In this document: piece by piece, positions 3,451 through 58,298 of the stretch
Numbering within the stretch: the first letter of the stretch is position 1
How the letters are laid out: the number at the start of each line of letters is the position of its first letter
Source: Streptomyces sp. NBC_00442
GTDB lineage: Bacteria; Actinomycetota; Actinomycetes; Streptomycetales; Streptomycetaceae
DNA length: 64,000 bases
Assembly (NCBI RefSeq): GCF_036014195.1
Contig: NZ_CP107918.1
Location: forward strand, 4,712,001 to 4,776,000
Reading direction: 5' to 3'
Translations under genes and position numbers: made by a program
The notes under the pieces: generated by a model
Database searches by the model: none
What the model was told of the DNA's origin: nothing
Seen by the model: only the letters and a program-made list of their open reading frames with translations

Positions 3451-4278
3451 ATGCGGGGGTGGTGGCGGGAGTTCTCCGGCCTTGTGCTGCCGACCGCCTG
3501 CGGCGGCTGCGGCAGGCAGCGTACGGCCCTGTGCGAGCGGTGCCGGGCGGCGCTGCTCGGCGCCAGGGTCCGGCGGGTGCGCCCGGCGCCCGAGCCCGCC
3601 GGGCTGCCCACGGTGTTCGCGGCGGCGCGCTACGAGGACGCCGTGCGCGCGGTGCTGCTCGATCACAAGGAGCGGGGCGCCCTCGGTCTTGCCGGGGTGC
3701 TCGGGCAGGCGCTCGCGGGCGCGGTGCGGGCGGCCGCGGGGCCCGGCGGGCAGGGGCGGCTCGTGCTGGTCCCGGTGCCGTCGTCGCGGCGCGCGGTGCG
3801 CTCGCGGGGGCACGACGCGACCCGCCGGATGGCGTTCGCCGCGGCCGCGGAACTGAGGCGGACGGGGACGGACGCGCGGGTGGCCGCGGTCCTGCGCCAG
3901 CGCCACGGGGTGGCCGACCAGACAGGCCTGAGCGCCCCGGAGAGGCTCGCGAACCTCTCCGGAGCCCTGACGGTGGCGGGCGGTGGCGTGGGCCTGCTGA
4001 CGGGCGGCCAGGTGGTCCTGGTGGACGATCTGATGACCACGGGTGCGTCGCTCGTGGAAGCGGCGCGGGCGGTCCGTGGAGCGGGGGTACGGGAACCCCG
4101 TACGGGTTTCCCCGCGCGAGATGGATGCCTCAGGCAGGGAATTGCGGGATTTTCACTGCGGGAACCCGCGCATCATCTGCGGAGAACCGGGGAGGCGCAG
4201 AGCGATGCAGGACAACCGCCGCTCGTGGCAGCGGTTGTCGCGGCCACTCCGGAATCGTTCGCGATAAACCGGAACTGA
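3451..4278 (+). CDS. ComF-family phosphoribosyltransferase-like protein
   Basis: ComF-type proteins carry an N-terminal zinc-ribbon and a type I phosphoribosyltransferase fold. Their role outside DNA uptake is unclear. The start is ATG at 3451 after gtggagg. Visible features are cysteines near the N-terminus (CGGCGRQ, CERC), the RSRGHDATRRM segment, and the PRPP-binding loop VVLVDDLMTTGASL around residues 189-202. The normal C-terminal strand and INRN ending follow (VVAATPESFAINRN). Between the PRPP loop and this ending lie about 40 residues that do not look like the family and are rich in Arg, Gly and His, encoded by 4087-4200 with short inverted repeats. The frame stays open through it, so the gene may still work. 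It sits between lpqB and hpf, as in other Streptomyces. Confidence 0.8.
   Translation: MRGWWREFSGLVLPTACGGCGRQRTALCERCRAALLGARVRRVRPAPEPAGLPTVFAAARYEDAVRAVLLDHKERGALGLAGVLGQALAGAVRAAAGPGGQGRLVLVPVPSSRRAVRSRGHDATRRMAFAAAAELRRTGTDARVAAVLRQRHGVADQTGLSAPERLANLSGALTVAGGGVGLLTGGQVVLVDDLMTTGASLVEAARAVRGAGVREPRTGFPARDGCLRQGIAGFSLREPAHHLRRTGEAQSDAGQPPLVAAVVAATPESFAINRN
4087..4200. repeat. Inverted-repeat-rich segment inserted in the comF-like gene
   Basis: The segment opens with a palindrome (gtacggg aac cccgtac, 4087-4103) that also overlaps a second imperfect inverted repeat (gggaacc to gggtttccc). It contains a third short hairpin near 4155-4175 (gcggg aa cccgc). Its codon third positions are less GC-biased than the flanking gene. 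It may be a small REP-like or MITE-like insertion that kept the reading frame; this is inference. Confidence 0.45.
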
Positions 4279-54020: not shown

Positions 54021-56414
54021 GTGGCCGCGCAGGATGCCGCTGTCGATTCCGCTGCCGGTACCTCCGAATCCGCGGTGGATTCGGTCCGGGAACGCGAAAT
54101 CGCTGGTGAACAGGTACATCTGGACCAGGTGTACCGCCGCCTGGAGGAGAAGATCCATGAGGCGGAGTTCCTGATGAACGACGCCGCCAAGCGCGGTCAG
54201 GTCGGGACGCCAGGCGCCCTCGCCGAACGTGACGCCCAGGTCTTCCGGGCGGGGGTCCATCTGAACCGGCTCAACAACGAGTTCGAGGACTTCCTCTTCG
54301 GCCGGATCGACCTGCTGCTCGGAAAGGACGGCAAGAAGGGCCCGGACGGCGCGTACACCTCGATCGAGCCCGCCGAGGACGCGGTGCGTCCCGACGGCAC
54401 GGCCGACATCGCGGAGACCCTGCACATCGGCCGGATCGGCGTTCTGGACGCCGACTACTCGCCGCTGGTCATCGACTGGCGGGCGCCGGCCGCGGCGCCC
54501 TTCTACCGCTCGACGCCGGTCGACCCCGGCCGTGTCGTACGCCGCCGCGTCATCCGCTCCAAGGGCCGCAAGGTGCTCGGTGTCGAGGACGACCTCATGC
54601 GCCCGGAGCTCACGGCGACCCTGAACGGCGCCGGGCTGCCCGTCATCGGCGACGGCGCCCTGATGGCGGCGCTCGGCCAGGCCCGCAGCCACACCATGCG
54701 CGACATCGTCGCCTCCATCCAGGCTGAGCAGGACATGGTGATCAGGGCGCCCGCCGCCTCCGTCACCTACGTCGAGGGCGGCCCCGGCACCGGGAAGACC
54801 GCCGTCGCGCTGCACCGCGCGGCCTACCTGCTCTACCAGGACCGGCGCCGCTACGCGGGCGGCATCCTGATCGTCTCGCCGACGCCGCTGCTCGTCTCGT
54901 ACACCGAGGGCGTGCTGCCCTCGCTCGGCGAGGAGGGCCAGGTCGCGATCCGCGCGGTCGGCAACCTCGTGGACGGCGCGGAGGCCACCGAGTACGACGA
55001 TCCCGCGGTCGCCCGCATCAAGGGCTCCTCCCGCATGCTCCACGTGCTGCGCAAGGCCGCCAGGGGCGCCCTCGAAGGGCCGGGGGAGCGCTCCGGGCGG
55101 TCCAGACGGCGCGGCGGCGAACAGCTCGCCCTCGGCGAACAGGCGCCCGCACCGGAACCCGCCCAGCGGCTGCGCGTCGTCGCGTTCGGCGCCCGCGTCG
55201 AGCTGGAGGCCGACGAGCTGCGGCGCATCCGGCAGACCGTGCTCAGCGGCACCGCGCCCGTCAACCTGCTGCGCCCGCGCGCCCGCAGGCTGCTGCTCGA
55301 TGCCCTGTGGTCGAAGTCCGGCGCGAACGGCCGCCACACCGACCCCGAGCTGGCCGCCGAACTGCGCTCCTCCTTCGACGACGACATCGCGTCCGAGGAC
55401 GCCTTCATCGCCTTCCTCGACGCCTGGTGGCCGGAGCTGACCCCGCGCGGGGTGCTCGCCGCGATGGCCGACGAGCGGCGCCTGGCGCGCTGGGCCCGCC
55501 GGGTGCTCAATCAGGGCGAGGTGCGGCGCCTGGCCCGCTCGCTCGCCCGGACCGCGAACGGCGCGTTCTCGGTGCACGACGTGGCCCTGCTCGACGAGCT
55601 GGAGACGCTGCTCGGCGCCCCGGCCCGGCCCAAGCGCAAGCGCGAGTACGACCCGCTGGACGCGCTCACCGGCCTCGAAGAGCTCATGCCCCACCGGGAG
55701 GAGACCCAGCGCGAGCGCGCCGAGCGGCTCGCCCTCGAACGCACCGAGTACGCGCACGTCATCGTCGACGAGGCGCAGGACCTCACGCCGATGCAGTGGC
55801 GCATGGTCGGGCGGCGCGGGCGTACCGCCACCTGGACGATCGTGGGCGACCCCGCGCAGTCCTCCTGGTCCGACCCGGACGAAGCGGCCGAGGCCCGCGA
55901 CGAGGCGCTCGGCAGCCGCCCGCGCCGCCGCTTCGAGCTGACCGTCAACTACCGCAACCCCGCCGAGATCGCCGAACTGGCTGCGAAGGTACTGGAGTTG
56001 GCGATGCCGGGCATGAAGTCGCCGGCCGCCGTCCGCTCCACGGGCGTGGAGCCCCGGTTCGCGGTCGTGCGCGACGGGGACCTGGCCCGCTCGGTGCGCG
56101 AGGAGGCGGGTCGGCTGCTCGACCGGGTGGACGGCACGGTGGGCGTGGTCGTCGCGATGCGGCGCCGCGAGCAGGCCGCGCGCTGGCTCGCGGGGCTCGG
56201 CGACCGCGTGGTGGCGCTCGGCAGCCTGGAGGCCAAGGGCCTGGAGTACGACGCCACGGTGGTCGTCTCCCCGGCCGAGATCGCGGACGAGTCCCCGGCC
56301 GGACTGCGGGTGCTGTACGTGGCGTTGACCCGGGCGACGCAGCAGCTCACGGTCGTCTCGGGGGACCGGGACGAGCCCGACGCGGACGGGGTGCCGGACC
56401 TGCTCCGCGATTAA
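54021..56414 (+). CDS. helD: HelD-family RNA polymerase recycling ATPase
   Basis: HelD proteins, related to UvrD-type helicases, free stalled or rifamycin-bound RNA polymerase from DNA. The 797-residue protein has a coiled-coil N-terminal part (about residues 25-75) that reaches the polymerase channel, Walker A (GGPGTGKTAV, about 257-266), DEAQDLTPMQW motif, motif III/IV (VGDPAQSSWSDPDEA) and C-terminal LYVALTRATQQL. Some relatives give rifampicin tolerance and are induced through a rifamycin-associated element; I see no such element upstream. GTG 54021 follows agaaggggg. Confidence 0.88.
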   Translation: MAAQDAAVDSAAGTSESAVDSVREREIAGEQVHLDQVYRRLEEKIHEAEFLMNDAAKRGQVGTPGALAERDAQVFRAGVHLNRLNNEFEDFLFGRIDLLLGKDGKKGPDGAYTSIEPAEDAVRPDGTADIAETLHIGRIGVLDADYSPLVIDWRAPAAAPFYRSTPVDPGRVVRRRVIRSKGRKVLGVEDDLMRPELTATLNGAGLPVIGDGALMAALGQARSHTMRDIVASIQAEQDMVIRAPAASVTYVEGGPGTGKTAVALHRAAYLLYQDRRRYAGGILIVSPTPLLVSYTEGVLPSLGEEGQVAIRAVGNLVDGAEATEYDDPAVARIKGSSRMLHVLRKAARGALEGPGERSGRSRRRGGEQLALGEQAPAPEPAQRLRVVAFGARVELEADELRRIRQTVLSGTAPVNLLRPRARRLLLDALWSKSGANGRHTDPELAAELRSSFDDDIASEDAFIAFLDAWWPELTPRGVLAAMADERRLARWARRVLNQGEVRRLARSLARTANGAFSVHDVALLDELETLLGAPARPKRKREYDPLDALTGLEELMPHREETQRERAERLALERTEYAHVIVDEAQDLTPMQWRMVGRRGRTATWTIVGDPAQSSWSDPDEAAEARDEALGSRPRRRFELTVNYRNPAEIAELAAKVLELAMPGMKSPAAVRSTGVEPRFAVVRDGDLARSVREEAGRLLDRVDGTVGVVVAMRRREQAARWLAGLGDRVVALGSLEAKGLEYDATVVVSPAEIADESPAGLRVLYVALTRATQQLTVVSGDRDEPDADGVPDLLRD

Positions 56415-56462
56415 ATTCGAGGTCAACTCGCGATGCGGGGATCACTTCCCGGGGTGGTTTGT

Positions 56463-56468
56463 TAGCCT
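56463..56468 (+). promoter_or_regulatory. -10 element before the structured RNA candidate
   Basis: tagcct matches the -10 consensus; the predicted start is G56475, exactly the first base of the closing stem. No good -35 is seen at 17-18 bases upstream. Confidence 0.5.
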
Positions 56469-56474
56469 GGTTGT

Positions 56475-56611
56475 GGCACCGGCTCGATCCAAGCCCCCGG
56501 GCCCAACCTTAGTCGCTCAGAGCGACCACTTGCCGCGAGGCGAGCATGGCGGGCCGGTGTCATCAACGTGAGAGACAGGCCCACGTCGTCTTCGGACGGC
56601 GTGGGCCTGTC
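56475..56611 (+). ncRNA. Structured small RNA or leader RNA candidate
   Basis: A multi-branched fold is readable. A closing stem pairs 56475-56483 with 56553-56561 (9 bp, one G-U). Inside are hairpins at 56512-56526 (6 bp perfect, 3-base loop) and 56529-56544 (6 bp with loop gcga, a GNRA type). A 17-bp terminator (56574-56611, uucg loop) follows. A tagcct -10 begins 12 bases before the first base. It lies between helD and the malic enzyme gene and has no coding frame with normal codon use. It could be a stand-alone sRNA or a terminated leader of the malic enzyme gene. The remaining stretch to 56864 holds only a short inverted repeat. Confidence 0.5.
56574..56611 (+). terminator. 17-bp terminator with UUCG loop
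   Basis: 56574-56590 pairs with 56595-56611 with one U-G pair; the loop is ttcg closed by C-G. It ends the RNA candidate upstream of the malic enzyme gene. Confidence 0.85.
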
Positions 56612-56733
56612 GTCGTTGCCGGAGCCTTGAGCGCGGGCCCCCTCCGTCGTGGCCCTCCGGCGCGGCGCCTCGGGCCCTCCGGCCGAGGTCTCCCGGTTGG
56701 GGCTTCCGCCGGACCACCACTTTCTCGTATGGT

Positions 56734-56747
56734 GGAAACAACTTTCC
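56734..56747. promoter_or_regulatory. Short inverted repeat upstream of the malic enzyme gene
   Basis: ggaaa caac tttcc lies 117 bases before the malic enzyme ATG and just after a -10-like tatggt (56728-56733). It is a possible operator but short. Confidence 0.3.
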
Positions 56748-56864
56748 GAAAAGGGCCGCCCATTATCGGCTACCAGCCAGTAGGTGCGACCATCGGATGG
56801 CACCGCCGCGCCACAGCCGAGGCGGTGCTAGCAACGAAGCTAGGGAAAGCAGAGGAACACGGTC

Positions 56865-58298
56865 ATGGCAACGGCGCCCAGCGTCTCGTACTCGATGACG
56901 GTCCGCCTTGAGGTGCCCGCAAGCGGCACGGCGGTCTCCCAGCTCACCACGGTCGTCGAGTCCTCGGGCGGTTCGGTCACCGGCCTCGACGTGACCGCCT
57001 CCGGCCACGAGAAGCTGCGGATCGACGTCACCATCGCGGCCACCTCCACGTCGCACGCCGACGAGATCGTCGAGGAGCTGCGCCGCATCGAGGGCGTCAC
57101 CCTCGGCAAGGTCTCCGACCGTACGTTCCTGATGCACCTCGGGGGCAAGATCGAGATGCAGTCGAAGCACCCCATCCGCAACCGTGACGACCTCTCGATG
57201 ATCTACACCCCGGGTGTCGCCCGGGTGTGCATGGCGATCGCCGAGAACCCCGAGGACGCCCGGCGCCTGACCATCAAGCGCAACACCGTCGCAGTCGTGA
57301 CGGACGGTTCCGCGGTGCTCGGCCTCGGCAACATCGGCCCGATGGCGGCCATGCCGGTCATGGAGGGCAAGGCGGCCCTCTTCAAGCGCTTCGCCGACAT
57401 CGATGCCTGGCCGATCTGCCTGGACACCCAGGACACCGACGAGATCGTGACCATCGTCAAGGCGATCGCCCCCGGCTTCGCGGGCATCAACCTCGAAGAC
57501 ATCTCCGCGCCGCGCTGCTTCGAGATCGAGGCCCGGCTGCGCGAGGCCCTCGACATCCCCGTCTTCCACGACGACCAGCACGGCACCGCGATCGTGGTGC
57601 TGGCCTCGCTGACCAACGCACTGCGCGTGGTGGGCAAGGGAATTGGCGACGTACGCGTCGTCATGTCCGGTGCCGGAGCGGCCGGCACGGCCATCCTCAA
57701 GCTGCTGCTCGCCGCCGGTGTCAAGAACGCGGTCGTCGCCGACATCCACGGCGTGGTGCACGCGGGCCGCGCCGACCTCGTCGACGCGGACCCCGAGTCG
57801 GCGCTGCGCTGGATCGCCGACAACACCAACCCCGAGGGCCTCACCGGCACGCTCAAGGAGGCCGTGGTCGGCGCCGACGTCTTCATCGGCGTCTCCGCCC
57901 CCAACGTCCTGAACGGCGACGACGTCGCGGCGATGGCCGACGGCGCGATCGTGTTCGCGCTCGCGAACCCGGACCCCGAGGTGGACCCGGCGATCGCCCG
58001 CGAGACCGCGGCAGTTGTCGCCACCGGCCGCTCGGACTTCCCCAACCAGATCAACAACGTGCTGGTCTTCCCGGGTGTCTTCCGCGGTCTGCTGGACGCG
58101 CAGTCCCGCACCGTCAACACCGAGATGATGCTGGCGGCGGCCGGCGCGCTGGCCGACGTCGTCGCCGAGGACGAACTCAACGCGAACTACATCATCCCGT
58201 CGGTCTTCAACGACAAGGTGGCCGGAGCGGTCGCCGGGGCCGTCCGCAACGCCGCCAAGGCCGCCGGCGCCGCTGTGACGGGCCCCACGTCGGCCTGA
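56865..58298 (+). CDS. NAD-dependent malic enzyme (ACT domain type)
   Basis: The 477-residue enzyme converts malate to pyruvate plus CO2 with NAD, linking the TCA cycle to gluconeogenesis and acetyl-CoA supply. It has an N-terminal ACT-like regulatory domain (about 1-85), a malic enzyme N-terminal domain (IYTPGVARVCMAIAENPEDA, KRNTVAVVTDGSAVLGLG) and the NAD-binding domain (VVMSGAGAAGTAILKLLLAAGV). The metal-binding signature NLEDISAPRCFEIE is present. ATG 56865 follows agaggaac. S. coelicolor has an orthologue here beside hupA. It may be controlled by the upstream RNA element. Confidence 0.95.
   Translation: MATAPSVSYSMTVRLEVPASGTAVSQLTTVVESSGGSVTGLDVTASGHEKLRIDVTIAATSTSHADEIVEELRRIEGVTLGKVSDRTFLMHLGGKIEMQSKHPIRNRDDLSMIYTPGVARVCMAIAENPEDARRLTIKRNTVAVVTDGSAVLGLGNIGPMAAMPVMEGKAALFKRFADIDAWPICLDTQDTDEIVTIVKAIAPGFAGINLEDISAPRCFEIEARLREALDIPVFHDDQHGTAIVVLASLTNALRVVGKGIGDVRVVMSGAGAAGTAILKLLLAAGVKNAVVADIHGVVHAGRADLVDADPESALRWIADNTNPEGLTGTLKEAVVGADVFIGVSAPNVLNGDDVAAMADGAIVFALANPDPEVDPAIARETAAVVATGRSDFPNQINNVLVFPGVFRGLLDAQSRTVNTEMMLAAAGALADVVAEDELNANYIIPSVFNDKVAGAVAGAVRNAAKAAGAAVTGPTSA

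Follow-up and report, generated by a model that had tools for sequence, protein, structure and literature searches.

Between a HelD-like helicase gene and a malic enzyme gene of Streptomyces sp. NBC_00442 lies a compact structured RNA whose homologues recur throughout the class Actinomycetes, and which we take, with somewhat more confidence than doubt, to be an independently transcribed, stress-linked small RNA (sRNA) that would act in trans by pairing through a conserved C-rich strand. The class-wide family to which it belongs, a three-way junction built around that strand (CCCCGGGYYCCA in its commonest form) and including a subfamily with a long P3 arm as well as copies on Rhodococcus plasmids, could, by an evenly balanced judgement, be the OxyS-like RNA component of the thiol-oxidative stress regulon in actinomycetes. 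The stretch of DNA analysed, hereafter the window, comprises 64,000 nt of the forward strand (GCF_036014195.1, NZ_CP107918.1, positions 4,712,001-4,776,000).

The core of the RNA (56475..56561, plus strand, as are all features of the fold given here) is closed by the P1 stem, whose 5′ strand (56475..56486) pairs with its 3′ strand (56550..56561). The initial annotation had described a closing stem of 9 bp; the stem is present and is longer, with 12 bp followed by a CCA/UGG continuation (56489-56491 with 56547-56549). Within it lie the C-rich conserved strand CCCCCGGGCCCAACC (56494..56508), a candidate pairing site whose columns are invariant or nearly invariant in the alignments A1 and A3 described below, and a weak 3-bp GCC/GGC hairpin predicted at 56493-56502. 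There follow two hairpins of 6 bp each, P3 (56512..56526), for which the forms GUCGCU/AGCGAC, GUCCCU/AGGGAC and GCCGCU/AGCGGC are seen, and P4 (56529..56544), which has a GCGA loop in the window and a GNGA loop, of the GNRA type, in the family at large. Both inner hairpins, one of them with a GNRA tetraloop, had been noted before, as had the 17-bp terminator-like hairpin with a UUCG loop, which we find at 56574..56611 with a weak T tract after it; a strict scan of 56380-56900 listed no terminator and no sigma-70-type promoter. The whole stretch from 56475 to 56611 folds at -81.9 kcal/mol (shuffle mean -55.4, z -6.1, none of 200 shuffles as good), in keeping with the earlier statement that its structure exceeds chance. 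The core alone (56475-56561) reaches -43.9 kcal/mol at a z of only -3.0, with 3 of 200 shuffles as good, and therefore much of the z for the whole stretch is owed to the terminator hairpin. The decisive evidence for an RNA is comparative, rather than a matter of folding energy.

First, the element is widely distributed. A DNA search matched 37 of 61 genomes, namely the window's own and all 36 others of the same genus, and none of the 24 remaining. Across 30 Streptomyces loci (alignment A1), positions 56473-56562 are gap-free with 96% mean column identity, and this nearly invariant core stands between flanks that drift quickly, the linker and terminator after it varying freely in sequence. A covariance model built from A1 (R1) matches 248 of 249 sampled Streptomycetaceae genomes. 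From the class Actinomycetes 296 genomes were sampled, and R1 matches 140 of them, 28 being of the own genus. For comparative reading, 60 regions around R1 matches outside Streptomycetaceae were taken, and a pattern scan gave at least 120 stretches, of which 80 among the matches listed were used as named loci. R1 recovers 74 of these 80 listed loci at E ≤1, the six without a match being L149 and L150, which are class members, and L186, L188, L194 and L213, which are titled outside the class; when loci that R1 had missed were retested with a second model, R2, built from 88 diverse copies, L150 gave a weak match (28.2 bits) and L149, L213 and L186 gave none. R2 matches 189 of the 296 class genomes (own genus 28/28, outside it 161/268), as well as 15 of 15 genomes of the same order outside Streptomycetaceae. 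In a phylum sample of 198 genomes it finds 14 matches, all within the class, and leaves without a match three listed class members that share a genus with several carriers. These class-wide counts are lower bounds, because large genome searches apply stricter filters and lose weak matches. The carriers include Mycobacterium, Nocardia, Gordonia, Williamsia, Nakamurella, Geodermatophilus, Cellulomonas and Georgenia, together with Microbacterium, Leifsonia, Arthrobacter, Rothia, Brevibacterium, Nocardioides and Tessaracoccus. Carrier genomes mostly hold a single copy, and the window's genome holds one, with the next-best match at E 5.4.

Second, the copies covary. Streptomyces itself offers little variation with which to test the fold, a single pair showing double changes, in 8 of the 30 rows of A1. 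We therefore turn to alignment A3, which has 88 rows (87 copies and the window), was made with MAFFT without structure, and was selected from 132 distinct cores, reduced to 112 under 92% identical and then by hand to the 87; it omits, among others, L117, which has a long P3. The consensus structure tested on it consists of P1 (10 pairs), P1c (2 pairs, immediately 5′ of the C-rich strand and 3′ of P4), P3 and P4, amounting to 22 pairs and 1910 cells. Paired cells make up 92.3%, compared with 82.0% after shuffling and at most 47.7% after sliding; double-change cells number 208 against 64.7 shuffled; pairs with double changes are 13 of 22 against 9.9 shuffled; and the covariation score is 0.334 against 0.145. 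Covariation is strong in P1 and P1c, where all 10 and both pairs, respectively, carry double changes, and touches P3 at one pair. P4, too invariant for covariation, shows no double changes in A3, which speaks neither for nor against it. The initial annotation had proposed covariation among orthologous copies as the check to make, and its reading of the element as a small RNA gains support from the outcome. P1c is a tentative part of the model. In the window and close relatives it is out of register, with its GC step in competition with P4, and only 20 of 88 single-sequence folds give it a probability above 0.5. RNAalifold offers an alternative in which the C-rich strand pairs with the P4 sequence; single-sequence ensembles favour P4. 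That the element might be no RNA at all, its very high conservation in Streptomyces reflecting instead a conserved DNA element or a short coding sequence, is highly improbable given the compensatory changes in P1, P1c and P3, the single-base shifts in core length between copies of A3, and the placement of a promoter motif at one end and a hairpin at the other.

The family also carries variations of its own. In all 15 same-order genomes outside Streptomycetaceae the matches are 113-115 nt long, and by this length they would belong to a long-P3 subfamily; an enlarged P3 arm is seen in the eight same-order copies that were read and in L273-L275, which are second copies of 110-112 nt in Streptomyces. 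An apical segment resembling GGAAUACCGU..GGCUGGAGCC is kept in the eight same-order copies read (L293-L300) and in L117, and is possibly a domain added to the subfamily; the Streptomyces second copies (L273, L274 and L275) differ at this apical segment. Locus L101 holds two copies in tandem (3988-4076 and 4170-4258, with starts 182 nt apart), each preceded by a GGAA[C/T]-N18-GTT motif. Copies occur on Rhodococcus plasmids as well, near a Rep gene in L265 (2491-2582) and near transposases in L266 (2460-2551), and one Rhodococcus plasmid has five BLAST places, one of which was read.

Third, a recurrent promoter motif precedes the RNA. The published SigR consensus is GGAAT-N18-19-GTT (PMC9205884), as is that of Corynebacterium glutamicum SigH, with GGAAC listed for SigH/SigE (PMC10012870); for Mycobacterium tuberculosis SigH it is GGAAYR-N17-18-GTT with positions 2, 5 and 6 tolerant (PMC4803200). 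Promoter counts outside Streptomycetaceae were made on 135 copies, which include two plasmid copies and omit L276, L277 and, for lying at locus edges, L179 and L198. In the 60 nt before the core, GGAA[C/T]-N17-19-GTT is present in 62 of these 135 copies, compared with 0/134, 0/135, 1/133 and 0/135 in four control stretches and a mean of 0.42 of 135 (maximum 2) in shuffled upstreams. The spacer is 18 in 51 of the 62, and in 55 of them the distance from the end of GTT to the core is 3-12 nt. Within 55 nt of these cores, 42 motifs have T as their fifth base and 16 have C; the GGAAC forms could be read by SigE as well. For Streptomycetaceae, counts were made on 79 loci of L001-L082 that have a certain 12-base word in identical form; these yield 76 different upstreams and 77 different downstreams. 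Exact GGAAT stands before GTT in 67 of the 76 upstreams when the best of four spacings (17-20) is taken, the best spacing being 18 in 37, 19 in 38 and 20 in one. Just before its 5′ end the family has, in many of its copies, the SigR/SigH-type element, and the window copy has it with one mismatch.

In the window itself, the -35-like element GGGAT (56438..56442, plus strand) lies 18 nt before GTT and departs from GGAAT at the third base. The -10 region GTTAGCCT (56461..56468, plus strand) superimposes the SigR-type GTT on TAGCCT, a housekeeping-type TANNNT preceded by TGT, which had already been pointed out and does begin 12 bases before 56475 (56463-56468). Since the third position is outside the tolerance listed for M. 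tuberculosis SigH, transcription of the window copy may depend more on the housekeeping-type -10; the mismatch concerns this copy, not the RNA family. Might the RNA then be a constitutive housekeeping RNA to which the ECF motif merely lends a stress boost in some lineages? Near-universality in Streptomycetaceae and the off-consensus -35 of the window would suit such a role, as would the overlap of SigR-type and housekeeping-type -10 elements in Streptomyces and the presence of TANNNT in place in 70 of the 135 copies outside Streptomycetaceae, 21 of which have the ECF motif too. The ECF motif is missing from 73 of the 135, and 24 of these are without TANNNT as well, some of them with TTGACA-like stretches; the TANNNT-only copies and those with neither make clear that the stress motif is not universal. 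We nevertheless find such a role rather unlikely, for the ECF motif persists across distant lineages while the surrounding bases drift, and in 10 copies from a family that we take to be Mycobacteriaceae it is present in 9, with TANNNT in place in none.

The downstream end and the neighbouring genes bear on how the RNA would act. Of 77 Streptomycetaceae loci, 75 have after the core a hairpin with 12 pairs or more, a number that drops to 6 on shuffling. Outside Streptomycetaceae terminator hairpins are weak: such a stem is present in 34 of 135 loci (5 after shuffling), and if a T-tract is required as well the count is 32 of 135, with 6 to 18 after shuffling. The gene for the HelD-like helicase (54021..56414, plus strand, in the window; a probable orthologue of SCO2952) precedes the RNA in the same orientation in 73 of 79 Streptomycetaceae loci, and the malic enzyme gene (56865..58298, plus strand) comes after it, again in the same orientation, in 72 of 79. 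Both names are our own readings checked by synteny, the exceptions among the 79 loci including the incomplete locus L024. This arrangement speaks for the other suggestion of the initial annotation, a cis-acting leader that would sense a metabolite and stop transcription short of the malic enzyme gene. Yet the position upstream of that gene is constant only within the family, for neither malic enzyme nor HelD is matched in any of the 134 loci outside Streptomycetaceae within the flanks examined; the linker and terminator vary freely beyond the invariant core; and the malic enzyme start is ~250 nt beyond the terminator hairpin. On these three grounds the leader reading is unsupported and, in our estimation, very improbable, and the malic enzyme gene is a neighbour, not evidently a target. 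Neighbours differ between lineages and recur inside each lineage (a gene that we read from sequence as WhiB-like stands beside the RNA in L105-L108, for example), and since synteny is thus lineage-bound while the neighbours change, the RNA most likely acts in trans. Upstream of the malic enzyme gene the window also has, at 56732-56748, a palindrome TGGAAACAACTTTCCG behind CTCGTATGG, with similar stretches in several Streptomyces loci; the palindrome resembles an IclR-type operator. Elsewhere the window contains a raiA-hairpin RNA (RF03059, 4501-4548) and a tmRNA (RF00023, 40715-41084).

Another recurrent neighbour is a gene of a single protein family, which in 62 of 135 loci outside Streptomycetaceae precedes the RNA in the same orientation at a distance of at most 250 nt. 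Its products have ~200 residues (e.g., L104:3410-4042, L276:2028-2687 and L183:4542-5132), and of 7998 scored, 3617 match at E ≤0.001; in four members tested, neither Pfam nor NCBIfam gave a match that passed its cut-off, and several members are labelled DNA-directed RNA polymerase subunit beta in the source annotation. One member is predicted to be all-helical (mean pLDDT 80), and its fold matches are middling ones to helical bundles. On the other side of the RNA, on the same strand, is a DUF47/PhoU-like gene, clear in L104 (4263-4883) and below cut-off in L276 (1152-1769), after which comes what we read as a phosphate-permease-like gene; groups of 17 and 19 loci look like these two.

This neighbour lends some interest to the main rival of the pairing model, in which a rigid fold with an invariant junction binds a protein, titrating or guiding an anti-sigma factor, a ribonuclease or a part of RNA polymerase. 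Near-invariance extends to paired and unpaired bases alike, which also suits the binding of a protein or a ligand and is a point against the pairing model; the third G of the tetraloop is kept in almost every row, although a GNRA loop alone would do; and the gene for the predicted all-helical protein precedes the RNA in the loci just counted. Against these points, the protein was not found in a search of the window's own genome, the grouping used placed no such gene close to the RNA in the remaining 73 of the 135 loci, and the fold matches are the middling ones given above. Taken together, we regard protein binding as a tentative alternative of real but lesser probability.

How, then, would an sRNA acting through its C-rich strand work? 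An RNA of ~90-140 nt would be transcribed from its own promoter, which in many lineages would be read by the ECF sigma factors of thiol-oxidative and heat stress, proposed here to be SigR in Streptomyces and SigH in mycobacteria and corynebacteria. The scaffold of P1-P1c, P3 and P4 would present the CCCCGGGYYCCA strand, nearly invariant in A3, which would most likely base-pair with G-rich stretches near the ribosome-binding sites of target mRNAs and, once stress switches the RNA on, lower their translation or stability. A crude search of the window's own genome for sites complementary to the C-rich strand found 12, counting the gene itself, and a reversed control 24; as such sites are not enriched, it lends no support to the pairing model. 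Recurrence through the class, mostly in single copy, together with a frequent stress-type promoter makes the RNA a candidate arm of the oxidative and heat stress response. SigR/SigH controls the disulfide and heat stress response in Streptomyces, mycobacteria and corynebacteria, and if the proposal is true, a conserved sRNA in this regulon could add target repression to what the sigma factor does alone. We know of no well-known Hfq-type helper in actinomycetes, and the family would then also provide a deep and well-bounded setting in which to study sRNA action without one. Its covariance model is usable for genome annotation.

Is the RNA new, as it looked to the initial annotation? In part. 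No Rfam 15 family reaches its gathering cut-off at the window locus, relaxed searches (to E 10 and E 5) give only low-scoring matches far below it, and in 16 distant loci Rfam 15 finds tRNAs elsewhere and leaves the RNA itself unmatched. The transcript of S. coelicolor has probably been reported already, as scr2952, which is reportedly the sRNA of that species from the 2011 study of Vockenhuber; we make this probable identification by the name, which carries the number of the HelD gene SCO2952, and by the HelD neighbour. SCO2952 is a HelD gene (PMC8655204), eleven sRNAs of the Vockenhuber study were confirmed by Northern blot (PMC11655288), and scr2952 has confirmed expression and is conserved in over half of the Streptomyces tested (PMC8388888). 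The class-wide family, its fold and its promoter link appear undescribed, as no account of them was found in the text of the open-licence papers searched.

Comparison with established RNAs places the family more closely. By its number scr2952 adjoins SCO2952, just as the window RNA adjoins a HelD-like gene; what is added here, as far as the accessible scr2952 literature goes, are class-wide homologues, a consensus fold and a SigR-type promoter, of which we found no report there. 6C RNA, whose definition calls for a pair of stem-loops with at least six C apiece (PMC8388888), is likewise an actinomycete RNA with C-rich unpaired bases; its C runs are in two hairpin loops, whereas those of the window RNA are in a junction strand, and neither A1 nor A3 contains such loops, nor does the window contain a match to RF01066. 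For Ms1/6S, the available text of PMC9130861 sets a length of 150 nt or more and describes Ms1/scr3559 as binding the RNA-polymerase core (PMC9130861), and the window RNA, at 137 nt to the end of its terminator hairpin, is shorter than that. Ms1/scr3559 is likewise widespread in Actinobacteria and located between unrelated genes, but is ~230 nt long as opposed to ~137 nt and belongs to a different locus. A likeness in manner of working would be to the OxyS-type oxidative-stress sRNAs, which are small, stress-induced and trans-acting; a similar working is what we propose here, for an RNA that differs from OxyS in phylum, regulator, sequence and fold, and for which we claim the resemblance rather than membership.
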